Source: Actinomyces sp. zg-332 (GTDB taxonomy: Bacteria; Actinomycetota; Actinomycetes; Actinomycetales; Actinomycetaceae). From it: a stretch of DNA of 64,000 nt. The DNA is taken from assembly GCF_011751945.2 (NCBI RefSeq), contig NZ_CP064951.1, positions 1,426,001-1,490,000 of the forward strand, written 5' to 3'. This document shows, piece by piece, positions 8,892 to 52,632 of the stretch; the first letter of the stretch is position 1, and each line of letters starts with the position of its first letter. A model generated the notes under the pieces. It made no database searches and was not told where the DNA came from. It saw nothing but the letters and a program-made list of their open reading frames with translations. Made by a program: the position numbers and the translations under genes.

Positions 8892-11800
8892 GTGCATACA
8901 AAAAATTCTCATATAATAAATATTTGCATAATAAATCTAATAATACTAAGTGTAATTTTCATAATGGGTTTATCAACTTCGACACATGCTTCCCCTCCAA
9001 ATACAATGCTAGAAGGAGAAGAATATGAAGATAATTGGATTCGTCCACAAAGTTGTCTACACAACGAAACTTTAATAAAAACTCGTATACAAGGGCATGA
9101 TTATAGCGAAACTATGCGAGCGTTTATTAATAATATTCAAAGAAATAATGAGTTAGGAATTGGCAAACCAATTAAGGATTTAATACATTACAACCTTGAT
9201 GATACTGATCCTCAAGCTTTCCACCATGCAACTTCAGTTTTGATGAATTTAGCTCTACAACATATAAGAAATAAAATAGAAAAATCTGTAGGTATTTATA
9301 GCGACGGAACTATACATAACAAATTTGGTTTTCCTTTGGAAACAATTTCTTATGAAGGCCACATTAAAGACCCCAGATATGTTTATGGTGCTTCAAAATA
9401 CCCTTCAACATATCCAGATGTAGCTTGGACTCCAGCTCAAAATATACGTGTTATAAACCCTAAAACTTCAAATGAAAGTGAGGAAATTTTAGCAAAAAAC
9501 TTAGCAGATGTACTGCCTAACTCAACTTTAGAAAAAGTCATTCCAGCTGACGCCTACCCGAAACCATCTGATGACGGAACAATAGTTGTAAATATCCCTC
9601 AAGGAACAAACAATTTTGAGCACATTTCAATAACTGCGCCAGATAAAGGGATAAATCTATTAGCAGTAAACTATGCTTTAAGGTACAAAGCTCCTTATAT
9701 ACATATAAATAAACTAACCGAATATGTTAATAATAATCGTGTTTATATAAAAAAGATTATATTTCCATCACAAAATGCTTATGAAGTAAAAGAAGAGATT
9801 GCAAAAATATTAAAAACTGAAAACGAAAAAATACAAATACCAGCTCCATATAGAAATAACACTCTCAGTAATGTAAATCCAAGTGATGCAAGCTCAATAA
9901 TTCTAAACGATATATACCCCACTGCAAGTAGTGATACCTACAATGCACTAGATACGTTATTTGTCACAAAACAACCTTATAATAACGAAAATCGTGAATC
10001 GTTAGCTTGGGAAAGTGATTTTCTAGCAGCTCTTTCATTAGCAGTTAACAAACCAAGTGACAGACAAGCAATAGTATTAGTAAAGTCTGTTAATGAAAGC
10101 TCACAACCGCTAACTGCTGATTTAAAAAATACTGTGAAAAAACTAGCACCAGGTAATATTTTTATTTCTGGTGGCCCTAGAGCTATTACAATGCCACAAA
10201 CAGAAGAAATATTAGCTACCCTATCTCGCTCTGAAAAACCTAATTGGTTAGATACTACTTCTGCTGAATGTAGACACGACAATCCTAAGTTAGTCATAAA
10301 GAAAACAATATTAAAAGACTCCAATATGAGCGAAACAGGAAAAGTAGATATAAATCAAGAAGTAAACTACCAAATTCAAGTTACAAACAAAGCAGAAAGC
10401 GGTATTGCTAGAAATGTAAAAGTCGTAGAAAAAGGTTTAGATGGACTAGAGCTAAAAAGTTACGTAATAAATCAGCATAGCTATCAAATTAGTAACAATA
10501 AAAGTGAAATTGCATTACAAGATATTGAACCACAAGAAACAAAAACGATATTAGTCAAAGGGGTTACTAAACGCTCAGATAAGTATAAAACAGCCAATTT
10601 GTCTTATATAGCTAAAAATGATGACGATAAAGATGAATGTAATGCTGAAGACAAAACTTGTTCTATGGCCATTACTGAACAAAAGCTTCCAAATTTAAAG
10701 ATATCAAAAACTTTAACTAACAAAGACAAGAGCAATAATGTAGACATTGGTGAAAACGTAGAATATGAAATTACTGTGACAAACACGGGAGATGGGAAAA
10801 CCGACGATGAAGTAAAAGTTTTTGATACTCCGATAATTGGTCTAGAAGATCTCAGTGTAAAAACTTTTAACTTAGGTGTTTTAGAATCAGGAGTAAGCAA
10901 AACTATAAAGCTAAAAGGAAAAATATTACCAAATTCACAGAAAATAACTGAAAACGTTGCAAATACTTGTTTTGGAGACAGCTGTAAACCTTTGAGTAAA
11001 TGTGAGGAAAATAGCCAAAATTGTAGCAAGCATACTCTAATTCATAATGTCCCCCAAATATATTTATCAAAAACCCACGATGAAAAAATGGGGGTACATG
11101 AAAACGACTATGTATATTTCGACATTACAGTATCAAACTCAAGCCAAACTTCTGCCAAAAATGTAGCTATAAAAGATTTACCTGTCTCAAACCTAAGTGA
11201 GATAGAATTTATTAAAATTCCTGTTGGAAAAATTGAAAATAATATCTGGAAAATACAAACACTTGCTCCTAACACCACCTATACAGGAAGAGTGCGAACA
11301 AAAGCCACATCTAATAATCAAGTTGAAAATAAGGCTTGTGTAAGTAGCGAATATATAGACGAAATTTGTGTAACAGATATACATAAAGATAATTCTTTTA
11401 TAACGGTAAATAAAAAACTACTAAATACAGATTCAAATAATCACACAGCTAAATATCAAATCACAGTATCTAATTCTGGAGAAACAAATAGCCGTAATAT
11501 TACTTTAGAAGACAAAATGAGCATAGAAAGTCCCAGTAAAAATTCAAGTTACAAACTAGTACCATATGGCGGAAAATATAAATTTACTAATATAGAACAA
11601 GGCGCAGTAAGTGAAAATGGACATCTATGGAATGTTGGTTCTGTAAAAGCAAATACATCGGTAAAAGCAATTGTAGAAGTATACGAAGCCACCGCAGACA
11701 TGGATGTAAATTCCAGAATAGTAAATGAAGTATTCCCCATCGACTATCCTAAATGTGATGTTGAAAAACATAAACAAGAGTGTTCTTCGATAAAACATAG

Positions 11801-12830
11801 TGGAGTAAAAGTAGTTAAAACAATAGATTCAAGCAGTATAAAAGATAATAAAATTCATGCTGGTCAAAAAATTATTTTCAATATCGAGTTAGAAAACACG
11901 AGTCAAAGCGATGCTTACAATGTGACTACAATCGATATAGGCGGAAAAAGTATTGAGAATCCAAGATTTATAACAGCGCAACTAGGCACAGTAGAAAATA
12001 ATAAATGGATAGTTGAAAAGCTACCTGCCGGAGAAAAAGTAAAAGCAACTCTTGAGGGAACTGTTAGTAATAACACTTATATAAATGAACAAGAACTAGA
12101 AAATACTGTTTTTACCTCATCACGCCTATTCTTCACTAAATCCCATACAACAAAACCATTTATCAGCTTAGATAGTGACAATAAAACAGAGGTAACATTT
12201 GAAAACTTTATATGTGAAAAAGACAATACTTATTGTTCTCAAGTTCAGTTAAAAGACAACTCTATTATAAAAATAAATAAAACTTTACTAGAAAAAGGAA
12301 TTAAAACATACGACGGAAAATATATTTGGAACATTGAAATCACAAACAAAGGAAGCACTACCGCAAACAACGTGAAAGTATACGAAATATTAACACCACA
12401 AGTTAAAGATGTAACTTGGATAGATAATCCTAATATTGACAAACTTGCCCCAAATGAATCTAAAAACATCAGAGTATCAACAACAATTTCAAATCCAAAT
12501 CTACTAGATGGTGTAATACAAAACATGGCAATAGTTGAAGCAGATAACTATAAGCCTTTAATTGACGATGAAATTGAAAATAGTTCGACAAACAACAGTA
12601 TTACATTGAATGAAAAAGATAAAGAAAAATTTATTTGCCAAGATAACGAAAATATAAATAATGACACAGATAGATGCGATATTGCTAAAGAAACTCAATA
12701 CACATTTACTGAAGAAAAACTAGCCAGCACTGGAACAAGTGGAAGCCTGACTGCTGTAATGGTACTAATATTTGTATTAAGCACAGGAGCAGTATGGTTT
12801 ATAAAAAAGAAAAGAAATAGCATATTCTAA
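8892..12830 (+). CDS. Cell-wall-anchored DUF11-repeat surface protein (LASTG sorting signal)
   Basis: A 1312-residue exported protein with a GTG start (AAAGGA seven bases upstream). The N-terminal hydrophobic signal segment ends near residue 33. The C-terminus has LASTG, a membrane segment and KKKRN, i.e. a sortase signal of the LAxTG type. Residues about 240-275 and 390-440 resemble alpha/beta cell-wall-binding repeats (AIVLVKSVN, then IFISGGPRAIT). Six DUF11-like Ig-fold repeats start near residues 463, 598, 720, 833, 969 and 1122, each with the pattern VxYxIxVTN and each trailed by a segment with paired cysteines. Possibly an adhesin or fibre-like stalk; the ligand is unknown. AT-rich like its surroundings. 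Confidence 0.85.
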   Translation: MHTKNSHIINICIINLIILSVIFIMGLSTSTHASPPNTMLEGEEYEDNWIRPQSCLHNETLIKTRIQGHDYSETMRAFINNIQRNNELGIGKPIKDLIHYNLDDTDPQAFHHATSVLMNLALQHIRNKIEKSVGIYSDGTIHNKFGFPLETISYEGHIKDPRYVYGASKYPSTYPDVAWTPAQNIRVINPKTSNESEEILAKNLADVLPNSTLEKVIPADAYPKPSDDGTIVVNIPQGTNNFEHISITAPDKGINLLAVNYALRYKAPYIHINKLTEYVNNNRVYIKKIIFPSQNAYEVKEEIAKILKTENEKIQIPAPYRNNTLSNVNPSDASSIILNDIYPTASSDTYNALDTLFVTKQPYNNENRESLAWESDFLAALSLAVNKPSDRQAIVLVKSVNESSQPLTADLKNTVKKLAPGNIFISGGPRAITMPQTEEILATLSRSEKPNWLDTTSAECRHDNPKLVIKKTILKDSNMSETGKVDINQEVNYQIQVTNKAESGIARNVKVVEKGLDGLELKSYVINQHSYQISNNKSEIALQDIEPQETKTILVKGVTKRSDKYKTANLSYIAKNDDDKDECNAEDKTCSMAITEQKLPNLKISKTLTNKDKSNNVDIGENVEYEITVTNTGDGKTDDEVKVFDTPIIGLEDLSVKTFNLGVLESGVSKTIKLKGKILPNSQKITENVANTCFGDSCKPLSKCEENSQNCSKHTLIHNVPQIYLSKTHDEKMGVHENDYVYFDITVSNSSQTSAKNVAIKDLPVSNLSEIEFIKIPVGKIENNIWKIQTLAPNTTYTGRVRTKATSNNQVENKACVSSEYIDEICVTDIHKDNSFITVNKKLLNTDSNNHTAKYQITVSNSGETNSRNITLEDKMSIESPSKNSSYKLVPYGGKYKFTNIEQGAVSENGHLWNVGSVKANTSVKAIVEVYEATADMDVNSRIVNEVFPIDYPKCDVEKHKQECSSIKHSGVKVVKTIDSSSIKDNKIHAGQKIIFNIELENTSQSDAYNVTTIDIGGKSIENPRFITAQLGTVENNKWIVEKLPAGEKVKATLEGTVSNNTYINEQELENTVFTSSRLFFTKSHTTKPFISLDSDNKTEVTFENFICEKDNTYCSQVQLKDNSIIKINKTLLEKGIKTYDGKYIWNIEITNKGSTTANNVKVYEILTPQVKDVTWIDNPNIDKLAPNESKNIRVSTTISNPNLLDGVIQNMAIVEADNYKPLIDDEIENSSTNNSITLNEKDKEKFICQDNENINNDTDRCDIAKETQYTFTEEKLASTGTSGSLTAVMVLIFVLSTGAVWFIKKKRNSIF

Positions 12831-12919: not shown

Positions 12920-13999
12920 ATGAGTTTTAGCGAAAAAACTAAAAAAGCACTAGGCATAACTACTACAAATAATACTCAAAAGTACACTTATTCACTATTA
13001 CCTATAGCTTTCAAAGGTACTAGGTTCTGGAAACCTATAATAGCTGTATTTGTAGGAATAGTATTATCCACAATCTTACAAGCAGTAGTTTTAATCTTGA
13101 GTTACTACGGGCTCAATTTTGATAAATCACATACGTTTATAGCATACATAAATATGCTTACAGGACAAATAAACGGCACAAATTTACCCGTATTGTTTGT
13201 TATGTTTAGCTCAGTAGGAGTAATGCTACCAGCAGTTTTTATAACACTATTTATCTGCAGAATGGCACCTATAAGAATGATTTCTTCAGTAGAATTGAGA
13301 CTTCGCTGGAAATTTCTATTCAAATCATTACTAGTGTCGTTAAGCATAATATTAGTAGCAACACTAGGAATAACAGCACTAGATAACTCACTATTCGACT
13401 TATCTTTACCAAAAGAAGTAGCTAGCGGAAGTTTTTGGATACTGTTTATAATTCTAGTTTTTGTGTGTATACCGATACAATGTGCAGCTGAAGAGTATAT
13501 ATTCAGAGGATTTATAATGCAAACATTGGGAGCATGGTTTAAATCTCCTGTGCTTGCGATACTGATACCTAGCATAGCTTTTGCCTTTGCTCACTTGTAC
13601 CAAGCATGGGCATTCTTTGATGTACTAATTTTCGGACTTTTATCTGGATACCTAGCACATAAAACTGGTGGCCTTGAAGCCAGCATAGCTATACACACAG
13701 CTAATAACGTATTCTCAATATTATCAGTAATATTTATATATAAGAGCTATGATCCTAATGCTAGTGGATCATTTATAAGCTTACTAATTACTGTTGTTGA
13801 ATTATTAGCTATAACTTTTATTGTCCTATTTATGGCTAAAAAGGCTAACTTGCAAACCACTTTTAATGTGTCAGAAAATCTAAACAATAAGTATGTTTTA
13901 GCAAACACTTCAGAAAACGAACATCGAATTATTTTAAGTACAAAGTCAATAAACAATAACCCAGATACCAGTAATAAAAACTATTTTTCTAATCACTAA
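12920..13999 (+). CDS. CPBP-family intramembrane glutamic endopeptidase
   Basis: Membrane protease of the CAAX-protease/bacteriocin-processing (ABI) family. It has about eight membrane segments and the three family motifs: AAEEYIFRGF (EExxxR), FAFAHLY (FxxxH) and IHTANN (HxxxN). About 60 polar C-terminal residues follow the last membrane segment. GGAAGG lies about 12 bases before the ATG. It follows the surface-protein gene by 90 bp on the same strand, so processing of an exported substrate is conceivable, but no substrate can be named. Confidence 0.9.
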   Translation: MSFSEKTKKALGITTTNNTQKYTYSLLPIAFKGTRFWKPIIAVFVGIVLSTILQAVVLILSYYGLNFDKSHTFIAYINMLTGQINGTNLPVLFVMFSSVGVMLPAVFITLFICRMAPIRMISSVELRLRWKFLFKSLLVSLSIILVATLGITALDNSLFDLSLPKEVASGSFWILFIILVFVCIPIQCAAEEYIFRGFIMQTLGAWFKSPVLAILIPSIAFAFAHLYQAWAFFDVLIFGLLSGYLAHKTGGLEASIAIHTANNVFSILSVIFIYKSYDPNASGSFISLLITVVELLAITFIVLFMAKKANLQTTFNVSENLNNKYVLANTSENEHRIILSTKSINNNPDTSNKNYFSNH

Positions 14000-14730: not shown

Positions 14731-15540
14731 TTATATGAGAGTATTCCCAAAACGGTGACGGCGCATTTCTTCAACAGCTCCAAATTCAATACTTTCTAGC
14801 GGATACCCTAATGCTTTTGAAAGTAACCAGTCAGCTAATTCTGGGTTACGTGCAAGACAAGGTCCATGCATATATGTGCCGATAACATTGTTAGAAAAAG
14901 CTCCGTCGAAGTGGTTAAACACAACTTCAGCGTTAGTCTCCTCAGCATAGCTTTCCCAAGCTTTCATTGAGTTAAACGCAGGGTCAGTCAAAGTATCAAC
15001 GTTATAGCAATCCCCAGCATTGCCCTTACCAACGAGCACATGACCTAATGGTAAAGCGTCCTTACCAACGTTAGTAACACCAGCATGATTTTCAAAACCA
15101 GTAAGCAAATCTGATATACCTGGCAAGATTGGAACAGAAACTATTTCACCAATAAAACGCTTACCACGTGAAACTGTCTCGATATCAAGTACTTCAAGCC
15201 CCTCAACCTTACGCCCAAAGGAGTCAATATACCAGTTACCTAAAATTTGCATAGATGCTGACACAGCCAGCACCGGCTTACCAGAATCACAAGCATTACG
15301 AAAACCAGCAAACTTACGCAAATGGTCAGTAGCTAAGCTCTGAGCAGTATCTTCCCCACCACCTAAGACGTAAACATCTAAGGAACTAGGAATTTCATCA
15401 TTCAATGAACAATATACAATCTCAGCATCAATATCTCTAGCTAAAGCTCTCTCACGTAGCACAATGGCATTACCAGTATCACCATAAGTACCCAGTACGT
15501 CAGGTAATAGTAACCCAATCTGTAGCTTTTCAGACACCAT
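14731..15540 (-). CDS. gatD: GatD-like subunit of lipid II isoglutaminyl synthase, catalytic Cys replaced by Ser
   Basis: GatD normally hydrolyses glutamine and feeds ammonia to MurT for amidation of D-Glu in lipid II. The 269-residue protein has the class I amidotransferase fold (VYVLGGGEDTAQ, Arg128 in GKRFIG, His225 in GTYMHGPCLARNPELADWLL). The nucleophile elbow, normally AICGGYQ, reads AVSASMQ: Ser94 (codon TCA) stands where Cys94 is essential in S. aureus GatD. The usual ENHGGRT is ENHAGVT, and about 30 extra residues precede the catalytic His. AGGGG supports the start. Second gene after murT. Probably a weak or inactive glutaminase. Confidence 0.88.
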   Translation of the reverse strand: MVSEKLQIGLLLPDVLGTYGDTGNAIVLRERALARDIDAEIVYCSLNDEIPSSLDVYVLGGGEDTAQSLATDHLRKFAGFRNACDSGKPVLAVSASMQILGNWYIDSFGRKVEGLEVLDIETVSRGKRFIGEIVSVPILPGISDLLTGFENHAGVTNVGKDALPLGHVLVGKGNAGDCYNVDTLTDPAFNSMKAWESYAEETNAEVVFNHFDGAFSNNVIGTYMHGPCLARNPELADWLLSKALGYPLESIEFGAVEEMRRHRFGNTLI

Positions 15541-15582: not shown

Positions 15583-16890
15583 TTACAAATACTTATATCC
15601 ACGTGCATTAATTTCATGCTTTACTTCGTGGAATGAAGTGTAGTTAGCAACCAATTCGACACGACCACTAGGAGATTTCAATATAGCTTCCATAGGATCA
15701 GTACATATCTCATAAGGTATACCAGCATAATCTAGGCGTACAGCCAAATCGTAGCTCCTCATACCACAAGCGTAAATTTTACAAGACGGGTTATTAGCAA
15801 CAATATCTTTGAGGGTTTTGAAATTAATATCCCATAGCCATGAAACATCAATGCCATCGCCAACCATATCGTTCACACCAATAACAATGCTCTTAGCTTG
15901 AGAGTCAAGCATTGAAATAGCTTGGTTCCAACCAGCAGGATTCTTAGCCAAAAGCATATGAACGTGCTTACCCTCAACATCTACAAGAGAGTACCTACCA
16001 GCAACATTACCAATCTTTCCAATAGCACTAACAGCTTTATCAACATCGGCCCCTAAACGAACAGCACAAGCCAAAGCTTGCATGGCGTTCATTCGGTTAG
16101 CCATTCCTGGCAACTTAACATCAACTTCAGTTATAACACCTATACCATAAAGTTTAGATTCACTGTCATAAAACCAATCAGCATTTGGTCGACTATAGTT
16201 TGTCTCTACACCATGTTCGTCAAGCCCAACCCATAACAAACCATCATATTTAACTACTCCACGAGTACGTGGGAAAACCAAACAATCTTGAGTATCACCT
16301 AAAGAACAGGCACACCATATACGTTCCTTTGCATCCCAAGCAGCACTAGCAACCATAGGGTCATCACAGTTAGCAACAACAAAAGCATTCTTAGAAACTT
16401 CAACACCTTCACGCACTTTTTTCTCTGTAGTGGCGATTTCTCCGACTCTATCTAATTGGTCAGCTGTGAGATTTAGCAGAATAATACCTGTCGGGTCTGT
16501 GCGTCTAGCTACTGACTCTAAATGCATTTCATCAACTTCTAAAACAACGTATGGAGCTTTAGGATTGTTCATCATAGCACTGACAACACCGTCATGCATA
16601 TTGTCACCTAAATCATTAGTTGTAACTTCACCAAGAGTACGCAAAGCAGCACATGTCATTTTAGTTGTAGTAGATTTGCCGTTTGTACCTGTTACTAGAA
16701 TAACTTTCCTACCATAAGCTAACTTTGACATGATTTGTGGATCTAATTTCAAAGCTATACGCCCACCAATCATACCTCCGTTTCCACGACCAGTCATTCT
16801 AGAAGCTTTCGCAGCCATTTTTCCCATAAATATCGCAAATTTACCACGCAAATTTAACTTTTTCATACGCATACCATCTTTTTGTGTCAT
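15583..16890 (-). CDS. murT: MurT-like ligase subunit of lipid II isoglutaminyl synthase
   Basis: Mur-ligase-fold subunit that activates the D-Glu carboxylate of lipid II with ATP and amidates it. The ATP-binding loop is VTGTNGKSTTTK, the central domain shows VVLEVDE and LLNLTADQLDR, and the C-terminal MurT domain shows LAKNPAGWN and DVSWLWDINF, which carry the family's catalytic residues. Length (435) is normal. Unusually, the Cys4 zinc ribbon expected at about residues 190-240 is degraded: the CPxCG part reads FPRTRG and the second Cys pair is absent (NYSRPNADW). GAGGAG precedes the ATG; gatD follows 42 bp later. Confidence 0.93.
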   Translation of the reverse strand: MTQKDGMRMKKLNLRGKFAIFMGKMAAKASRMTGRGNGGMIGGRIALKLDPQIMSKLAYGRKVILVTGTNGKSTTTKMTCAALRTLGEVTTNDLGDNMHDGVVSAMMNNPKAPYVVLEVDEMHLESVARRTDPTGIILLNLTADQLDRVGEIATTEKKVREGVEVSKNAFVVANCDDPMVASAAWDAKERIWCACSLGDTQDCLVFPRTRGVVKYDGLLWVGLDEHGVETNYSRPNADWFYDSESKLYGIGVITEVDVKLPGMANRMNAMQALACAVRLGADVDKAVSAIGKIGNVAGRYSLVDVEGKHVHMLLAKNPAGWNQAISMLDSQAKSIVIGVNDMVGDGIDVSWLWDINFKTLKDIVANNPSCKIYACGMRSYDLAVRLDYAGIPYEICTDPMEAILKSPSGRVELVANYTSFHEVKHEINARGYKYL

Positions 16891-21722: not shown

Positions 21723-24206
21723 TTATCCTACTATAGACGAATTTTGCATTTTTATGTTTATCATCCACGTTAACCATATAGACAAACACATAGGAACTAT
21801 CAAGACAAGAGCATTGCCCGGAATGACAATACCTGAATCATTGACCGACCCACCAATGAATAACATCACAAATAAGCTCAAAATCATTGGTTTTAGAATC
21901 AATAAATCTTGATCCACGCTTTTATCTGTGTAATCACTTATCAACCATCTATAGGTATCAATGTTCTTGTTAACATTCTTCTTCATATGAGGAAAGAACA
22001 TTATATAAACTATCAAAAAGGCACCTGCAATAGCTATAACAATTAAAGGTGAAGTTAGCATATTAACGTTAGCGCCTAATTTCCTATATACGACTGGCCA
22101 TAGCCCTCCATCTAAAATAACTTGCATAAAGTTACCTAAATGAGTTCTTTGAGTAGCCGGTCTCATCCAGTCAAATAAGCATATACCTAAGACAATTATA
22201 CCAGTGAAAGCAAAAACTCCCACTATTCGTTTCCAACTTAATTTTACTTCCAAAAGTATTAAAATTAGGAAAACAAAACCTGGAATAATTGCTGGCGGAC
22301 CACCAAAATCAGCACCAAATTTTGGTAAACCATCAATTACTGTTGAATAAGCCATTAGTATAAATAGAGTAGCAAAAATCGCTAATTTAGATTTCCTGCG
22401 TACATATTTTTCACATAATGCTGCACCTAACATCAATGTGGCAGACGCAAATAACGCAAACATTATGTTGCCAAATCCATACATTCTAGCACCCAAAATT
22501 GACTGAGAACCTAGTACTGAGTCCAAAAGCATTTGGTTGCCAATTAAAGGATCTATGGTCAAAGCAACTACATGTATTAACGATACTAATATTAACGGAG
22601 CTACTAAACTATTTTTTAATTTACCTATAGAACATACACAAGCCACAATAACAGACATTAAAGTAGGTACAAGAATAGTTCCAATTTCCTGTCCACGATG
22701 CTGCCACCAAGGAAGTAAATTATAAATCAAGCCATTTATTGGAACACACGCAACCACTATTGAAACAAAACGTAATACTTTCCATGTACGAAGAGAAGTA
22801 GCAATTTCAGATAAATCTTTCTTAAAATAACGCTTAGCTAAGTTTATAAAACGCTTATTTAAAATAGCCCCAATACTAATAAATAGTATTGCTGTAATAG
22901 ATACCATATATAGTAAAAATGGCGGTGCTGTGCGCTTAATTCTATCTGCATGTACAGCTCTATCAATTAGCACATTTGCTTTAGAACCTACGTAGGCTTG
23001 AGGAGCATCTACTTTCAAATCTTCTTGCCTAAAAGTAGGAAGTTTTGAAGAGACCGTGCTTAGAACTTCTACATCTGACTCCCCAAGCAAACTGAGTATC
23101 TTCTTATAAATATCTTCATTTTGTATCAAACCAATATGACGAGTTGAAGACGATTTGATAAAACCTTTTTCTTTAAAAACAGGTCCTCTAAAAGCAACCA
23201 TTTGTAAATGAGGAATTGGGCCAGAGTCAGACAAAGAAGCCAAAACAATGTTTTGATTTTCACTCTGATAAGACAAAATAGTATCTAAACGTTTTAAAAG
23301 TTTGTAAGTATGTGTAGCTAAAGGTGTATCAGTATAATCTATCCCTCCACGTTTAAGCATTTTTTCTTGAGTGTATTGTCTACGTGAATTTGTTCCACGT
23401 TCTTTTGACATTGCGTAACTATCTACGCTATAAGCTCTAACATTAACGCGCTGATATGGTCTAATCTGACCAGCATCAGCAATAACGACTTTATTTTCTT
23501 TTATTTCTGAAGCAATTTGTTTAGCGAAAATATTATCATTAGAGTGAGCATGGCTGAAATCACGAATTTTACCATCAGATCCAGCTAACGCTACTGCAGC
23601 CCCAAGACCAATAGGTTTAACTTTGTATTTACTTAGAGCTTTTTTTAAGCTGCCTAGTTCTGCATGGTAATTATTCTCTGATTCACTTTGTTTATAAGCA
23701 TTCCAGTCGTGAATTCTGTTAGAGTCATAAGGACTAGCAAAGTTGGCGCATATACCAACTCCACCTCTATACGCGTCACCAAAACGTTTACCTGTGTTTA
23801 AGGCTAGCCAGCCATCAGCAGTACAAGTTGAGCTAGTTATTGATCGGACAATGTTATTAGCCAAAGCACTTTCTTCAATAAATTTTTTCAAATTATCAAG
23901 TTTGTAATATTTTAGTTGTGCATTGATATCTTCTAAACGTAGCCCACCGACACCGATTACTAATAAATTTTCATTTTTCTTTAGGACTTCAAAGTCTTTA
24001 GTTTGCGAGTTTTTATCATCATTTTGCCCAGTAATAGCATTAGTTTCATTTGTGTTGCTATCTTTAGGCGTCGAGATGCCATGTACGTTTTCTTTAATGC
24101 TTTGGCTACGAACAGGTGCACTTGCATATACAAGACTTGAACCCACTAGTGTAAAAATAAATAAAACTACTAATACTAACGCAACTATTCTGCTAAACCG
24201 ATTCAT
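21723..24206 (-). CDS. Polytopic membrane protein with extracytoplasmic alkaline-phosphatase-like domain
   Basis: 827 residues. A signal-anchor (residues 8-28) leads to an outside domain of about 390 residues that resembles the alkaline phosphatase/sulfatase superfamily (LLVIGVGGLRLED, then STCTADGWLALNTGKR where a nucleophilic Ser/Thr is expected, and later SLSDSGPIPH). The remainder, from about residue 430, is a bundle of roughly eleven membrane segments. Its start lies six bases after the lipid kinase stop, so the two are probably co-translated. The context (glycosyltransferase, lipid kinase) suggests a role in envelope lipid or glycolipid metabolism, but the function is unassigned. Confidence 0.75.
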   Translation of the reverse strand: MNRFSRIVALVLVVLFIFTLVGSSLVYASAPVRSQSIKENVHGISTPKDSNTNETNAITGQNDDKNSQTKDFEVLKKNENLLVIGVGGLRLEDINAQLKYYKLDNLKKFIEESALANNIVRSITSSTCTADGWLALNTGKRFGDAYRGGVGICANFASPYDSNRIHDWNAYKQSESENNYHAELGSLKKALSKYKVKPIGLGAAVALAGSDGKIRDFSHAHSNDNIFAKQIASEIKENKVVIADAGQIRPYQRVNVRAYSVDSYAMSKERGTNSRRQYTQEKMLKRGGIDYTDTPLATHTYKLLKRLDTILSYQSENQNIVLASLSDSGPIPHLQMVAFRGPVFKEKGFIKSSSTRHIGLIQNEDIYKKILSLLGESDVEVLSTVSSKLPTFRQEDLKVDAPQAYVGSKANVLIDRAVHADRIKRTAPPFLLYMVSITAILFISIGAILNKRFINLAKRYFKKDLSEIATSLRTWKVLRFVSIVVACVPINGLIYNLLPWWQHRGQEIGTILVPTLMSVIVACVCSIGKLKNSLVAPLILVSLIHVVALTIDPLIGNQMLLDSVLGSQSILGARMYGFGNIMFALFASATLMLGAALCEKYVRRKSKLAIFATLFILMAYSTVIDGLPKFGADFGGPPAIIPGFVFLILILLEVKLSWKRIVGVFAFTGIIVLGICLFDWMRPATQRTHLGNFMQVILDGGLWPVVYRKLGANVNMLTSPLIVIAIAGAFLIVYIMFFPHMKKNVNKNIDTYRWLISDYTDKSVDQDLLILKPMILSLFVMLFIGGSVNDSGIVIPGNALVLIVPMCLSIWLTWMINIKMQNSSIVG

Positions 24207-36013: not shown

Positions 36014-37096
36014 TTATCCAACCTTCAACATATTTTGTTTCATAACAATGAAGAATACAACTGAACCAATTATGGCTGTAAAAATACCGATAGGAAGGTC
36101 AGCATAAGACATAGCTGTGCGAGCAATCAAGTCAGCACTTCCAACGAGAATTATGCCCCCAACAGCAGATAGAGGAATCAACCAGCTATTCATAGGACCA
36201 ATAATTAGGCGTAATAAATGTGGAACAATTAAGCCGACAAAAGTAATAATACCAGCAAAAGAAACAGCACCGGCAGTCAGCAAAGCAGTCATACATATAG
36301 CTGTGAAACGTAAACGTGGAACATTCAAGCCAAGATATTTAGCAGTATCTTCACCCAAGGCTAGTAAATCTAGTTTTGGAGCAATATAGAAAGAAACTAT
36401 TAGCCCAAAAATCACTATTGGTGTAACTACAATTATGTGTTGCCAATTAGCCCCGTTTAATGACCCCATTTGCCAGAAAACTATTTGGTTACGAGCTGTA
36501 GTAGGAGCAGCATAGGTGAAGAACGCTATCATGGCACCACATAGAGCGTTTACAGCTATTCCCGTTAAGATGAGAGTTATTACCCTAGCTTTGCCACCAG
36601 ATTTTGACATTTGGTAAATAGCAAAAGTAACTATTATTCCAGTTACAAAAGCTGAAATTGGGACTGTAAGCAAGCTTAGGAATGTCCAGTTCATAACAAT
36701 TGCTATACTTGCCCCGACGGCACAGCCAGATGAAACACCAATGATTCCAGGTTCAGCCAGCGGATTAGCAAATATCGCTTGCATTATGGCTCCACCAACT
36801 CCTAGGGAAGCTCCAACGAGCATTACCATTACTATTCTAGGCATACGTATGAACCAAAAAACTTGGTATTCTTGAGAAGATGGATCACCAATATTGAATA
36901 AAAATTTATATACTTCTGAAGTATTTATATGGAACTGTCCTAGCGAAGCTGAAGCAATAAACAATGCACACAAAATGAATAGCATTACTATTAGGGTACT
37001 TAAGCGTAAAACTTTTCTTTGTTTCAAAGCATTATTTTGTTTAGTACTGTTGCTTATTTTTTTATTTGTATTGGTTTTAGTAGATACTTGTTCCAT
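36014..37096 (-). CDS. hmuU: Haem ABC transporter permease HmuU (FecCD family)
   Basis: 360 residues with about ten membrane segments and FecCD hallmarks: MPRIVMVMLVGASLGVGGAI, NPLAEPGIIGVSSG and the coupling loop with GIITFVGLIVPHLLR. A polar N-terminal stretch of about 30 residues (Lys/Asn/Thr-rich) precedes the first membrane segment and is longer than usual. Forms the channel with HmuV. No ribosome site is visible before the ATG. Separated from hmuT by 716 bp, so it probably has a separate promoter. Confidence 0.9.
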   Translation of the reverse strand: MEQVSTKTNTNKKISNSTKQNNALKQRKVLRLSTLIVMLFILCALFIASASLGQFHINTSEVYKFLFNIGDPSSQEYQVFWFIRMPRIVMVMLVGASLGVGGAIMQAIFANPLAEPGIIGVSSGCAVGASIAIVMNWTFLSLLTVPISAFVTGIIVTFAIYQMSKSGGKARVITLILTGIAVNALCGAMIAFFTYAAPTTARNQIVFWQMGSLNGANWQHIIVVTPIVIFGLIVSFYIAPKLDLLALGEDTAKYLGLNVPRLRFTAICMTALLTAGAVSFAGIITFVGLIVPHLLRLIIGPMNSWLIPLSAVGGIILVGSADLIARTAMSYADLPIGIFTAIIGSVVFFIVMKQNMLKVG

Positions 37097-37812
37097 AGTT
37101 ATTATTATTTCATATTTTTAAATACTTTTTATATTTTGCTAATATATCTATACTCAATTATCAGTTGTCTGATAAATAATATTTCAAATAGTTATTAAAT
37201 AGCTTTTATTTAGTTATTAAACAATTTTCATTCCAGTATAGATTTTTTATTATCGTAATGTGTTGTTACTTTTTACCTTATCCAATACTCCCTTCCCCTT
37301 GTTGCCAAAATTAACTGTTTATATAAACAATAATCGTTAGGTTATTTGTACATAGTTTTACTTAGTACATGTCACGTTTGGTGACTTTACCTATCTGTAA
37401 CTTTATGTAATTTTAACTTCTTGTAATTTATTACTATGAATTTATTATTTACTCTTTAAATTTGTGGTAGTTTAAGCAGAAGTTTCTTTATCTATCTTCT
37501 AATACCTTAGTTTGTAAAATCGCAGTTATATTATTGCCGTTCCAAAGAGATAATAAAAGCATTAAGTTTAGTTTTTTGAAAGCTCTGCTATTTGCTTGCC
37601 AGTTTACATAACTCGCTTAAGAGTTTATGTATATGGGTATAAGTTCTAAGTAAGTTTTGCTATTGGTTGGTTAGTCAGTATTGTTTCTTAGCTGGCTAAT
37701 TAGTTGGTCAGTTACTTAGCTAGTTAGTCAACTAGTTATTCGCAACGGTTAGCTTTACAATTCTTTATATAAATGCAACCTATTATTTATTAGCAATACA
37801 CAATATAAAGTT
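37097..37812. other. 716-bp gap between hmuT and hmuU with low-complexity repeats
   Basis: No gene. Contains a 14-bp palindrome TGTTTATATAAACA (37316-37329), a half iron-box-like TTAGGTTA at about 37338, and a stretch at about 37660-37740 built from degenerate TTAGCTAGTTAGTC-like units. Any hmuUV promoter would be here. Confidence 0.5.
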
Positions 37813-38883
37813 TTACTTTCCCTCACCTAAGTATAATGCTTTAGCAACTTTACTTAGAACTTCACCTGTTTGTGGACCAAAGGATAAAGCCAATCCATCA
37901 GGAATAGCAACCACTCGCTTATTTTTACCAGCAGTAGTTTGTGCTACACCCGGTCTTTCAAGCAGACCTTCGACTCCATTAGCAGATTCGAGCCCTTTAC
38001 TCATGACGAAGAATACATCAGGGTTAATTGAAGCTATGGATTCAGCAGTTGCTGGAGATATCCCTTCTATTCCAGCTCTACTAGCAGTGTCATGAGCATA
38101 TACGTTTTCGATTAGCTCGTCACTCCCCTCACCTTTACCCAAAATGAAGAATATTCCGCCATTTCCACGCACATATAAGAAAGCTACTTTTAGTGGTTCT
38201 TTATTATCTCCTACTAAGGTTTTAATTTCTTCTTTAGCTTTTTTTATCTCAGATTCTGTACGTTCAGCAAGTTTCTTTCCAAGCTCAGTAACACCCATGA
38301 TTTCAGCAACCTGCTGAATTTGTTTCCCTACTCTTTCAATCGATCTCTTACTATCAATTTTTACTATAGTTGTTCCTGTAGCTTTTAATGATTCTAATAC
38401 TTCTGGTGGCCCTACAGAATCGTCAGTGATTATCAAAGTTGGTTTCAAAGAAGCTATTGCTTCACCATTTAGAGCATGACCATCTTGAGTAACTACTGGT
38501 AGGTTTTCTAAGCTTTTTTCAGTATCAGATACTGTTCTACCAACTAAGTTTTTTTCAAACCCTAAACTTATTAGTGTTCGAGAAATAGTTCCATAAATAT
38601 CTAAAGCTAGTATTCTGGAAGTATCTTTAACCGTAACTTTGTTACCAGAACTATCTGTAACTGTAACTGGCAGCTGCTGTTTTGGATTAACTTTGCCAAT
38701 CAGTTTAGGATCAGATATATCTTGTACTTGTGTAACGCCTTGGATTTTGTGTGGATCTATATTAGTGTTTTGCGTAGATTTTGTATTTGATTCAGGAGTC
38801 TGTGCTTGAGAACAAGCTGTTATACCACTTATGAAAGATAAACTAATCAAACAAACAACAATTTTTTTCATTTTTATTCGCAT
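37813..38883 (-). CDS. hmuT: Haem-binding lipoprotein HmuT
   Basis: 356-residue periplasmic-binding-type lipoprotein (class III, ChuT/FepB fold). The signal has a lipobox ending at ITAC, lipidated Cys near residue 24. The mature part shows RILALDIYGTISRTLISLGFE, VVTQDGHALNGEAIASLKPTLIITDD, an alpha-helical backbone with Lys/Glu, and ISPATAESIASINPDVFFVM. Receives haem from HtaA-type wall proteins and passes it to HmuUV. Upstream of it is the htaA terminator, so it needs its own promoter or read-through. Confidence 0.92.
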   Translation of the reverse strand: MRIKMKKIVVCLISLSFISGITACSQAQTPESNTKSTQNTNIDPHKIQGVTQVQDISDPKLIGKVNPKQQLPVTVTDSSGNKVTVKDTSRILALDIYGTISRTLISLGFEKNLVGRTVSDTEKSLENLPVVTQDGHALNGEAIASLKPTLIITDDSVGPPEVLESLKATGTTIVKIDSKRSIERVGKQIQQVAEIMGVTELGKKLAERTESEIKKAKEEIKTLVGDNKEPLKVAFLYVRGNGGIFFILGKGEGSDELIENVYAHDTASRAGIEGISPATAESIASINPDVFFVMSKGLESANGVEGLLERPGVAQTTAGKNKRVVAIPDGLALSFGPQTGEVLSKVAKALYLGEGK

Positions 38884-39060
38884 TTTAAATCCAACCTATC
38901 GTGTACGTCACAAACTCTCTACCAAAACATCTATCTTATTTTATTAAAATTACCCTGGTATATAAATTTATTAGTCATATAAAACGATTTTACGTAACTA
39001 TTTATAAGCCAGTAAGTTATGATCCATCAAACAATATTTATTATTACTGTTTAAGCATAA

Positions 39061-39098
39061 AAATTGGTCTTACGAGATTTTACTCGTAAGACCAATTT
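39061..39098 (-). terminator. Terminator of htaA
   Basis: Perfect 16-bp inverted repeat AAATTGGTCTTACGAG / CTCGTAAGACCAATTT with a six-base loop, starting a few bases after the htaA stop. T residues follow on the minus strand (TTTTTATG). Separates htaA from hmuT transcriptionally. Confidence 0.88.
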
Positions 39099-39100
39099 AA

Positions 39101-40888
39101 TTATTTAGCCATCTTACGAGAAATGGTTATACCGAATACACCAATTAGTGATAGCAAAGCTATTGTTGTTAGTGCGTATTCACCATTTGCACCTGTTGAA
39201 GATAGTACTGGGTTACCATTTGCATCATAACAAGTAACTTTATCGCTTAGTTTAACATTTACTGTTAGGTTATCTAGTTGTTTACCAGCTTTATAGAAAC
39301 CAGCAAATGCTTTAGCACCTTGTTCAGTTAGTACAACTGAAGAAGTTGTTGCATTAAAACTATCTTTAGTAAAGTTTGCATTAGCGAAAGTTACGTCAGC
39401 AAAACGAATGCGACCTGGAATAACTGGTTTTCCTGTCATATCAGTTGAGGAAACTGATAGCTCTAGATAACCAGTAGTTGGGCTTGTAACTACTAAAGTT
39501 GGGTTAGACAATGTCAAGTTCAAGACACCACTGTGCTTGTAGAAGTTGAAGTTACCACCGAAGTTTATACGACCTGTCTTCTTACCAACATTTATCATTG
39601 AACCTGGATGGGTTGCTGGATATATGAAAGTGCCGTTATTCAAGGTAGCACCTGCGCGTGGTGTAATTACTCCACGACCACTACTTCCAATGCTTGAAAG
39701 AATATAGCTGTAGAATGAACGACTGAATGTCCAGTTCAATCCACCATTTACAACACCACGTACCTGTGGGTCAGCGACACAGCGTGGTTCGTCTGACTGT
39801 TGAGGCTTTTCAGGTGCTGCAGGTGCTGGAGCTATTTCTGGGCGTCCAGGTGTTGGAGGTGCTGGAGGCTTTGGTGGTTGCACTGTCGAAGCAACAACAT
39901 CGAATTCAGCTTCAGCAACAGTCTTAGTTTCACCTTTATAAGCTACTAATACTTTATGCTTACCTGCAGACAAACTTGATGGTAATGGGGCAGTAAATGT
40001 AGCCCTACCATCAGCTCCTACAGCAACACTACCCATCTTTGTTGATAATGAATCAAGGAATAAATCAACTTCTTTATTAGCTACAAGATTTTCAAGTGTT
40101 GTTGTAATATTCTCACTAGCTTTGTATGATTTCTTATCAATTTGTAATGTAGGAGTTGCTGGCTGAGAATCATCAGGAGTGACCGAAATAGTTTTTTGCA
40201 ATTCTAGTGTAAATGAGACAGGGTCACCTGGTTTATTACCATATACTGTGCGACCACCAACAATATCAGCACCTGCTTCTGTGATGGTTGTAGGAGCATT
40301 AGTTACTGTTATTGTTGAAGCTGTGTAATCAATTGGGCTTGCTGACAAATCTACAGTTGCAATTTCAACATTTTGTGTTGTAGTGATTGGAACTAGTGCC
40401 ATTGGGTTATCCATTGATGCACCCTTACGGTATGTGAGATCAGCCACTAATGTTGCGCTTGTAGGGTTATCAATACGTAAACGTAAGTTATTGATTGTTG
40501 AGTCTACCAAGTAATCTGTGCTTGGAGGAATCTTGTACTTTTGATACTGCAATCCACCTGGGAAAGCAATTGAGTTTGCTGCATTTGGATTGATAGTTGT
40601 TGCAGCATCAGTATGCCAACCATATCCATAATCAGGTGCTTTACGAGTATCAGCATTAGGGTCCACGGACACACCATTATGTCCTGTTGTAACGCCTGGT
40701 GCTCCCATAATAGGCATCTCCATGTGGCTACGCCATCTTTGGATAAATCCCCATTTTAAATCACCTGAAGTGACTTTAATTGTTTCTGTGCCGGTAGCAT
40801 TTGCAGTAGATAGGGCTGTAAATCCTATTAAGCTAAATACTAGGCCCAACACTGCTGTTACTGCGGACACTCTCTTTGGAATGCTCAT
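39101..40888 (-). CDS. htaA: Wall-anchored haem-binding protein with two HtaA domains
   Basis: About 595 residues. Signal peptide ends near AANA/TANATG (about residue 32). First HtaA domain (about 35-235) begins GDLKWGFIQRWRSHME and has YGYGWHT; then an Ig-like/haemoglobin-receptor-type segment (250-340), a Pro-rich linker (about 345-375), and a second HtaA domain (GGLNWTFSRSFYSYI). The C-terminus is LSSTG, a membrane segment and RKMAK, a sortase signal. In corynebacteria HtaA domains bind haem through Tyr/His and hand it to HmuT. Start at ATG 40888 preceded by AGAAAG. A DtxR-like palindrome lies upstream. Confidence 0.92.
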   Translation of the reverse strand: MSIPKRVSAVTAVLGLVFSLIGFTALSTANATGTETIKVTSGDLKWGFIQRWRSHMEMPIMGAPGVTTGHNGVSVDPNADTRKAPDYGYGWHTDAATTINPNAANSIAFPGGLQYQKYKIPPSTDYLVDSTINNLRLRIDNPTSATLVADLTYRKGASMDNPMALVPITTTQNVEIATVDLSASPIDYTASTITVTNAPTTITEAGADIVGGRTVYGNKPGDPVSFTLELQKTISVTPDDSQPATPTLQIDKKSYKASENITTTLENLVANKEVDLFLDSLSTKMGSVAVGADGRATFTAPLPSSLSAGKHKVLVAYKGETKTVAEAEFDVVASTVQPPKPPAPPTPGRPEIAPAPAAPEKPQQSDEPRCVADPQVRGVVNGGLNWTFSRSFYSYILSSIGSSGRGVITPRAGATLNNGTFIYPATHPGSMINVGKKTGRINFGGNFNFYKHSGVLNLTLSNPTLVVTSPTTGYLELSVSSTDMTGKPVIPGRIRFADVTFANANFTKDSFNATTSSVVLTEQGAKAFAGFYKAGKQLDNLTVNVKLSDKVTCYDANGNPVLSSTGANGEYALTTIALLSLIGVFGITISRKMAK

Positions 40889-40933
40889 ATTCTTATCTTT
40901 CTGTGCGTCTCTACACAAAACTGCGTAACTAAA

Positions 40934-50762: not shown

Positions 50763-52598
50763 TTAACTAACCAAAGCTTCACGAGCCTTTTCTTCAACAA
50801 ACATTTGTCTTTCGGCGTATTCACCCTTCTTACCAATATTGAATGAAGATACTGGTCTGAAGTAACCCATAACACGCGTCCAAACTTCGCACTCCCTAAC
50901 GTTATTAGGATCATTTGCCGCACATTTAGCACAAGTCTTATGTTCACCAGCCAAATATCCATGAACAGGACACACTGAAAACGTTGGAGTAATAGTGATA
51001 TATGGTATACGGAAATTAGTCAAAGCTCTTTTCACAATTTCCTTACAAACCGCACTTTCACTGATTCTTTCACCCATATACAAATGCAAAACTGTGCCAC
51101 CTGTGTATTTCGTCTGTAGTTCCTCTTGTCTACTTAAAGCCTCAAATGGATCTTGAGTAAAAGCAACTGGCAGTTGTGAGGAGTTCGTATAGTATGGTTG
51201 ATCGGATGTTCCTGCTTGAATAATGTTAGGGAACCTCTTCTTGTCTTCCTTAGCAAAACGGTAAGTAGTACCTTCAGCTGGGGTTGCTTCTAAATTATAC
51301 AAGTGCCCCGTTTCTTCTTGGAAATCAACCATTTTTTCACGTATATGATCTAGAATACGTACACACATTTTATGACCATATTCATCTGTAATATCATATT
51401 CACCCAAAGTAAAGTTACGTACCATTTCATTCATGCCGTTAACACCAATAGTGGAAAAATGGTTATCTAATGTACCTAAATAACGTTGTGTAAATGGGAA
51501 TAGACCACTATCAATGTGTTCTTGAATTACAACACGCTTCTTTTCTAAGGTACTTTTTGCTAATTCCAATAAATAGTCAAGTTTTTCAATTAAAGCTTTT
51601 TCGTCATGTGCGTGAATATATCCGAGTCTTGCCATATTTACAGTTACGACACCAACCGATCCTGTTTGTTCAGCTGACCCAAATAGTCCATTGCCACGTT
51701 TTAACAATTCACGTAAATCTAGTTGCAGACGACAACACATTGAACGGATCATGCCTGGTTCTAACTCTGAGTTAATGAAATTTTGGAAATATGGAAGTCC
51801 GTATTTTGCCGTCATCTCAAAGAGCAAATCAGTATTTTCATGTTCCCAGTTAAAGTCTTTAGTAATGTTGTATGTAGGGATTGGGAATGTAAAAACTCTA
51901 CCCTCAGCGTCTCCCTGTGTCATTACTTCCATGTAAGCCCTATTAATCATATCCATTTCTTCTTGGAGATCACCATAGGTAAAGTCACACATCTTACCGC
52001 CAATAAACGGCTTTTCATCTTTCAAATCCTCAGGGCATACCCAGTCGAAAGTCAAGTTAGTGAATGGTGTTTGAGTTCCCCATCTGCTTGGAACGTTCAA
52101 ATTGTAAATCAACTCTTGTATTGCTTGTAAAACTTCTTTATATCCAAGATTATCTAGCCTAATATATGGTGCCATATATGTGTCAAACGAAGAAAATGCT
52201 TGCGCACCAGCCCATTCATTTTGCAAAGTACCTAAGAAATTGACAATTTGTCCAACTGCAGATGATAAGTGCTTTGGAGGATTAGCCGCAATCGCTCCAG
52301 AAACTCCATTAAATCCTTGTTGTAACAAAGTTTTTAGCGACCAGCCAGCACAGTAACCTGCAAACATATCCAAGTCATGTATATGGTAATCAGCGTTTCT
52401 GTGAGCCATTCCTTCTTCAGGTGTATAAATATGAGACAACCAGTAATTTGCTATCATTTTTCCAGAAGTATTTAGCATTAATCCACCAAGTGAGTATCCT
52501 TGGTTAGCGTTAGCGTTGACTCTCCAGTCGCTTCTATCTAAATATTCTTCAATTGCCTCTATCGGATTTACAAAAGGTTTGTTGCCATCGGTGTTCAT
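50763..52598 (-). CDS. nrdD: Anaerobic ribonucleoside-triphosphate reductase NrdD without ATP-cone
   Basis: Class III reductase making dNTPs without oxygen. The radical Gly is about residue 577 in TRVMGYFRPVS; the thiyl Cys is about 288 in RSMCCRL, another conserved Cys about 80 (AGYCAGWSL); HIHDLD lies nearby. A zinc site near the end is CPVH plus CAKC. 612 residues is shorter than E. coli NrdD (712): the N-terminal ATP-cone is absent, as in phage T4 NrdD. Start at ATG 52598 with GGGGA upstream; a TTG at 52604 is less likely. Two NrdR boxes stand upstream. Confidence 0.95.
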   Translation of the reverse strand: MNTDGNKPFVNPIEAIEEYLDRSDWRVNANANQGYSLGGLMLNTSGKMIANYWLSHIYTPEEGMAHRNADYHIHDLDMFAGYCAGWSLKTLLQQGFNGVSGAIAANPPKHLSSAVGQIVNFLGTLQNEWAGAQAFSSFDTYMAPYIRLDNLGYKEVLQAIQELIYNLNVPSRWGTQTPFTNLTFDWVCPEDLKDEKPFIGGKMCDFTYGDLQEEMDMINRAYMEVMTQGDAEGRVFTFPIPTYNITKDFNWEHENTDLLFEMTAKYGLPYFQNFINSELEPGMIRSMCCRLQLDLRELLKRGNGLFGSAEQTGSVGVVTVNMARLGYIHAHDEKALIEKLDYLLELAKSTLEKKRVVIQEHIDSGLFPFTQRYLGTLDNHFSTIGVNGMNEMVRNFTLGEYDITDEYGHKMCVRILDHIREKMVDFQEETGHLYNLEATPAEGTTYRFAKEDKKRFPNIIQAGTSDQPYYTNSSQLPVAFTQDPFEALSRQEELQTKYTGGTVLHLYMGERISESAVCKEIVKRALTNFRIPYITITPTFSVCPVHGYLAGEHKTCAKCAANDPNNVRECEVWTRVMGYFRPVSSFNIGKKGEYAERQMFVEEKAREALVS

Positions 52599-52632
52599 TT
52601 TCAATTTTCCCCATATAAATTTTTATTTTCAC

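Follow-up and report, generated by a model that had tools for sequence, protein, structure and literature searches.

A MurT/GatD pair of Actinomyces sp. zg-332 with serine at the GatD nucleophile site and alanine in place of the MurT gate arginine

How would a lipid II isoglutaminyl synthase obtain its nitrogen if its glutaminase subunit had no catalytic cysteine? In S. aureus this enzyme consists of MurT and GatD, neither of which works alone, and its donor at neutral pH is glutamine (PMC3266927). The question is raised by a gatD homologue in the DNA analyzed here, a stretch of 64,000 nucleotides of the Actinomyces sp. zg-332 genome (contig NZ_CP064951.1, positions 1,426,001 to 1,490,000; “the window” below). 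A sequence-only reading of this gene had pointed to serine at the nucleophile position. Its features, in window coordinates, are as follows.

14731 to 15540, minus strand: gatD homologue, 269 amino acids from an ATG start; lipid II isoglutaminyl synthase subunit of the glutamine amidotransferase type, Ser94 replacing the catalytic Cys
15478 to 15486, minus strand: Tyr19-Gly20-Asp21, kept; counterpart of the Tyr30 plug and Asp32 of S. pneumoniae GatD (PMC6085368)
15259 to 15261, minus strand: Ser94 codon TCA, the nucleophile site by alignment on S. aureus Cys94
15157 to 15159, minus strand: Arg128, kept; essential to S. aureus glutaminase activity (PMC5871853)
14914 to 15012, minus strand: variable insert, residues 177 to 209 approximately, ahead of the His motif; low model confidence
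14866 to 14868, minus strand: His225, kept; corresponds to the catalytic residue His189 in S. aureus GatD

The nucleophile elbow reads A92-V93-S94-A95-S96-M97-Q98 (codons GCT GTG TCA GCA TCT ATG CAA), and both the open reading frame and the alignment on S. aureus Cys94 confirmed the serine that the sequence-only reading had placed at residue 94. The alignment also bore out the accompanying statement that the catalytic Cys is gone while Arg128 and His225 are kept; the oxyanion residues Gly60 and Gly61 are kept as well. In S. aureus, mutants of C94, H189, and R128 had no glutaminase activity (PMC5871853). The window GatD has four cysteines, at residues 44, 84, 178, and 228. None is in the elbow, and the alignment revealed no other Cys there that might have overturned the reading. 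One candidate for a displaced nucleophile was Cys228 (in HGPCLARNP); we ruled it out, as the same Cys is found in two relatives (L124 and L126) whose elbow Cys is normal. Sequencing error is also unlikely: TCA is two bases away from both Cys codons (TGT and TGC), as had been argued before, and MurT has a change of its own (see below).

Two other peculiarities that had been remarked upon in this protein are real but not specific to it. The change to ENHAGVT is present, but Ala153 is shared by two of the 62 other family rows, L032 and L160, whose sequences are identical. Similarly, there is an insert ahead of the His, but 11 of the 62 other rows have at least the window’s 47 residues at this place (median 23).

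Assignment of the protein to the GatD family rested on profiles, fold, and gene neighborhood. PF07685 (CobB/CobQ-like GATase) matched window GatD with 98.6 bits against a cut-off of 27. The NCBIfam equivalog cut-offs were missed for GatD (NF045636, 117 bits vs. 400; NF052463, 129 bits vs. 450) and for MurT (NF045635, 172.8 bits vs. 800). However, four Cys-bearing GatD relatives (111 to 129 bits) and two MurT relatives (163.7 and 141.8 bits) fell short as well, so these misses are uninformative on the window pair. The AlphaFold2 model of GatD (pLDDT 89) was most similar to S. pyogenes GatD (9sq9_C; Z 29.7, rmsd 2.4, 231 residues aligned); six GatD chains headed its matches with Z of 28.1 to 29.7, and the next row had Z 18.9. 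Ser94 lies in this model between strand 90-93 and helix 95-99, the arrangement of a nucleophile elbow. Descent, neighbor, and fold make the protein a GatD homologue, and its elbow predicts that it is not a working GatD glutaminase.

To judge how rare this serine is, we compared the elbow with those of relatives. The aligned residue was Cys in all 109 other loci (29 from family genomes and 80 from GTDB contigs). A family alignment of 63 rows had Cys in 61, Ser in the window, and Gly in one locus that we call L131b. A motif search, collapsed by sequence context, gave 151 distinct elbows outside the window; Cys was present in 150 of them, the exception again being the Gly of L131b. A further 20 family loci (from 19 new genomes), mostly of a more distant GatD type, all had Cys. 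Besides the source genome, 127 family genomes gave a match, and in 83 of these the elbow was read; the remaining matches include weak ones that may belong to proteins other than GatD. The sequence-only reading had named, as evidence against its proposal, relatives with the same elbow Ser that show glutaminase activity or full amidation from glutamine; no relative with this Ser was found among the comparison loci, drawn from a set in which the source genome is the one genome of its genus. Likewise, no report of a natural Cys-less GatD was found among the literature matches listed, and a literature search for a Cys-to-Ser change in carbamoyl phosphate synthetase gave no match.

The partner gene lies immediately upstream, with 42 bases between the murT stop and the gatD start.

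15583 to 16890, minus strand: murT homologue, 435 amino acids, synthetase subunit resembling Mur ligases; the first gene of the two-gene unit
16438 to 16473, minus strand: MurT loop N140-E151 (N-L-T-A-D-Q-L-D-R-V-G-E), its strictly invariant residues kept besides Arg143
16462 to 16464, minus strand: MurT Ala143 codon GCT, counterpart of S. pneumoniae MurT Arg135
15847 to 15849, minus strand: MurT Asp348, kept; counterpart of S. aureus Asp349, the third residue of a proposed triad (PMC6113224)

The protein matched PF08353 (MurT_C, 83.5 bits) and PF08245 (Mur ligase middle domain, 51.2 bits), and its model (pLDDT 93) best matched MurT 9sqj_AAA (Z 31.6, rmsd 3.4, 363 residues aligned). It has a second change, absent from the sequence-only reading: R143A. 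Position 143 is Arg in 135 of 135 other MurT rows with a residue there (138 rows including the window, two with gaps, one best row per locus). A motif that allows any residue at 143 but fixes its neighbors found 149 other distinct loop contexts, all of them with Arg; since the neighbors are fixed, the L131b loop is uncounted. Arg was also present in all 19 of the 20 further family loci in which the MurT loop was covered. Numbering was transferred through the S. pneumoniae chain with an offset of 18, which agrees with residues D112, E113, D136, D139, R140, and E143 of the published structure (PMC6085368). In that work Arg135 is called conserved; it flanks a negatively charged opening toward GatD, bridges Glu201, and closes a gate in one of two models (PMC6085368). 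In window MurT, Asp202 stands at the Glu201 position. Alanine mutants of the same loop retained 10% (Asp136) and 13% (Arg140) of activity (PMC6085368), but the mutant table has no entry for Arg135, and what Ala143 does can only be guessed. Passage of ammonia from GatD to MurT has itself been modeled so far, not seen, in the structural reports (PMC6085368, PMC6113224).

We also considered the zinc ribbon of MurT. Its four cysteines (Cys4) are missing from window MurT and from the family rows printed, and only some Actinobacteria have the ribbon (PMC6085368), so its absence is not diagnostic. Zinc-ribbon loss and the GatD insert were both ruled out as part of the story, being traits common to relatives.

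Are these two residues the only conserved ones that have been lost? Our strict test was limited to columns with a residue in 90% of rows or more; each locus contributed its best row, and the degenerate L131b was outside the sets. Twenty-two GatD columns were invariant in 140 other rows and 30 MurT columns in 137 other rows; the window departs at one of each, C94S and R143A, respectively. Lowering the threshold to 95% conservation added just one departure, MurT V355I. Lone departures at strict columns were also seen in GatD rows L110 (three), L105, and L132 and in six other MurT rows. By this measure one strict departure is not unusual in itself; what is unusual is which residues were hit. The MurT residues for ATP and acceptor are kept (N70-G71-K72, N97, E118, D120, E121, K316-N317-P318, D345, D348, and W351), as are the counterparts of the interface pair Trp353 and Gly23. 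Mapped in this way, the losses are on the putative glutaminase and its predicted coupling to MurT, and the ligase is spared.

The codons suggest an order of events. If changes occurred one base at a time, TGY would have reached TCA by way of TCY, because TGA is a stop codon, and the silent change would then have followed the Cys-to-Ser replacement. On the same condition, CGN to GCT at MurT 143 takes two successive replacements. These paths argue that neither change would be brand new.

One possibility is that Ser94 itself is the nucleophile, making GatD a serine glutaminase, perhaps a slow one, that feeds MurT from glutamine. His225, Asp21, Arg128, the oxyanion glycines, and MurT Asp348 are all in place for such a reaction, and serine nucleophiles occur in related folds, for example in peptidase E and cyanophycinase. 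However, loss of MurT Arg143 would be left unexplained, and the same substitution has been engineered: S. aureus GatD-C94S had no activity in vitro while its fold and melting temperature were unchanged (PMC6113224). We therefore consider a serine glutaminase unlikely.

It is more probable that the pair runs on free ammonia or is idle. Between these, and among the outcomes offered in the sequence-only reading (no amidation, free ammonia, or another role), we favor ammonia, since the kept synthetase and interface residues, together with the lost gate Arg, would point to it; our preferred explanation, at a probability of roughly 0.45, is that GatD is a pseudo-glutaminase scaffold and that MurT amidates lipid II with free ammonia. 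The organism’s only detected MurT/GatD pair for lipid II amidation would then have turned ammonia-fed. GatD would still fold and dock on MurT as the structural partner that MurT needs, but with Ser as nucleophile it would have lost glutamine hydrolysis, as S. aureus C94S did. MurT would activate the alpha-carboxyl of the stem-peptide D-Glu with ATP and take free ammonia, by analogy with S. aureus C94G, which lost glutamine use while its use of ammonia at pH 8.5 was unaffected (PMC3266927). Loss of the gate Arg beside the GatD-facing opening may leave the path from the glutaminase site less tightly sealed, so that ammonia could enter from solvent. Some points speak against this explanation. At pH 7.5 neither the wild type nor C94G of S. 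aureus used ammonia (PMC3266927), which by analogy would leave use at cytoplasmic pH unproven. In addition, the retention of Arg128, His225, and Gly60-Gly61 would not be expected if the glutaminase were long gone, as these residues should have eroded.

A looser test bears on how fast the pair is evolving. At 97% conservation within the family (59 rows, with L131b, L161b, L132, L145, and L150 dropped), the window has more GatD departures than any other row, 4 of 62 columns (G36D, C94S, L158V, and G217N). In MurT it departs at 7 of 98 columns, a number exceeded by L161 alone. These departures fit a fast-evolving lineage and would weigh against an ammonia-fed enzyme. In both trees the window is among the long end branches (GatD, 1.25 vs. 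a median of 0.2; MurT, 1.54 vs. 0.28). We saw no clear sign that gatD alone is decaying faster: measured against its own tree, GatD has no clear excess of divergence over MurT. The GatD tree puts the window beside genomes G028, G056, and G033 (support 87/84), a placement that is uncertain because the window is a long branch; in the MurT tree, a quick version, it meets another long branch.

The distribution of the genes in the family is patchy. GatD matches were found in 128 of 213 family genomes and in 17 of 36 genera, leaving 85 genomes and 19 genera with none; the MurT/GatD operon has been called universally present in Actinobacteria (PMC6085368). Outright loss is thus common, which is a further point against the ammonia-fed explanation. 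In genome G033 there is a second murT/gatD pair (L131:3448-5849, our L131b) whose frames are open and whose catalytic residues are lost in both subunits, with Gly94, His19, Val64, Arg67, and Pro128 in GatD. The normal pair of this genome lies 2.2 kb downstream, with cation-efflux-like and TetR-like ORFs (named by eye) in between. Both Cys-less GatD proteins, that of the window and that of L131b, are paired with a MurT without the gate Arg, although these are two cases and one of them is degenerate throughout. In another genome (G152, L183:499-1217), gatD is interrupted near residue 71, by a frameshift or a sequencing error, and continues in a second frame; the adjoining murT match is unbroken.

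These observations bear on the main rival to the ammonia-fed reading, a recent loss of function: the pair would be on its way out, with the glutaminase lost first, lipid II hardly or no longer amidated, and the genes persisting because the loss is recent. The 85 genomes without a match indicate that the pair is dispensable in the family. The degenerate copy in G033 and the split gatD of L183 provide examples of decay, and the long end branches and the number of GatD departures would be accounted for. The genome is also small (1.54 Mb) and AT-rich; GC content is 34% in the window as compared to 44-69% in six loci of relatives. On the other hand, 21 of 22 GatD and 29 of 30 MurT strictly invariant positions have been kept along a long branch, both frames are open, and no clear excess of divergence in GatD over MurT is seen against their trees. 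In addition, each replaced codon differs from the usual codons by two bases or more. We regard decay as less probable, and an ammonia-fed pair remains our preferred explanation.

Could other genes of this genome make up for the loss? Each of MurT and GatD has one match in the genome, which argues against a second copy of either that covers the loss. A general loss of glutamine use is unsupported: the genome has two matches to glutamine synthetase (PF00120), and the elbow Cys is intact in all three of its PF00117 proteins, which by eye are GuaA, PyrG, and an orphan GATase. These other class I GATases therefore do not share the loss. No ammonium transporter match (PF00909) was found in the genome, and this too speaks against the ammonia-fed explanation. 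With regard to the third residue of the stem peptide, a MurE match just reached one DAP-type cut-off (373.1 vs. 373) and lacks the DNPR motif. There was one partial FemAB-like match (27.5 bits vs. a cut-off of 24).

It could be speculated that another small amine such as glycine is coupled, or that a different glutaminase feeds MurT in trans, so that the D-Glu alpha-carboxyl would not carry a plain GatD-derived amide. Loss of the nucleophile and the gate Arg alters the donor side and leaves the acceptor side intact, and glycine or other substituents are found on the D-Glu alpha-carboxyl in some actinobacteria. The orphan class I GATase, with its Cys, could serve as a source in trans. However, GatD retains its Tyr19 plug, no sequence feature singles out a donor, and nothing ties the orphan GATase to MurT. 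We consider this quite improbable. A broader proposal, which we put forward as a tentative possibility, is that the double change reflects a new nitrogen donor: the pair would be either an ammonia-dependent lipid II amidase, able to work at cytoplasmic pH through loss of the gate Arg, or a ligase that joins some other small amine to the alpha-carboxyl of D-Glu.

Several other loci were noted in the course of this survey. L114 (G000:C1:535883-536320) encodes a class I GATase with an intact elbow Cys, and it reached no NCBIfam cut-off among the matches listed. Within the window, an ORF of 827 amino acids (21723-24206, minus strand) had no Pfam match at E 0.001 and lies between the genes for seryl-tRNA synthetase and a diacylglycerol-kinase-like protein. 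A surface-like protein of 1312 amino acids (8892-12830, plus strand) has six DUF11 stretches and a C-terminal hydrophobic tail, and its gene is followed by one for a CPBP-type protease (12920-13999). A FecCD-type permease near an HtaA-domain protein (36014-40918, minus strand) likely belongs to an iron or heme uptake cluster, and an anaerobic ribonucleotide reductase (NRDD; 50763-52604, minus strand) is consistent with anaerobic life.

A natural pair minus its nucleophile and a gate residue, with the rest of the invariant positions in place, provides a ready means of testing which residues in MurT keep the ammonia path sealed. If the pair is ammonia-fed, it would be a bacterial parallel to the ammonia-only carbamoyl phosphate synthetase I (CPS I) of land vertebrates. 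If it is idle, it would show D-Glu amidation in the course of being lost; within the family, 85 of the 213 genomes have no gatD match. If there is a new donor, this would be stem-peptide chemistry new for MurT/GatD, as far as the literature covered goes.

Compared to the MurT/GatD enzymes of S. aureus and S. pneumoniae, the window pair has the same two-gene unit, folds, synthetase motifs, triad His and Asp, Arg128, and interface Trp353 and Gly23; it differs in having Ser for the nucleophile Cys, Ala for the gate Arg, and no zinc-ribbon cysteines. The engineered S. aureus mutants C94S and C94G affect the same residue, and C94S is the same substitution. In contrast to these, the change in the window is natural and is accompanied by Arg143 to Ala in MurT. 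The L131b pair of G033 resembles it in having a GatD elbow without Cys (Gly there) and a MurT without the gate Arg (His there). Unlike in the window, the synthetase residues of L131b MurT have been lost (N70S, N97P, E118G, D144G, R148D, K316R, D345T, and D348A). The CPS I of terrestrial vertebrates is described as having a class I glutaminase domain without the catalytic Cys and as using free ammonia only, with the exception of bullfrog CPS I, which has kept its triad (PMC7657897). Window GatD likewise is a class I glutaminase domain minus its catalytic Cys, and ammonia as donor, established for CPS I, is proposed for the window pair. The synthetase of CPS I is unrelated and eukaryotic, however, and the glutamine-binding residues that are usually changed in CPS I are kept in the window.
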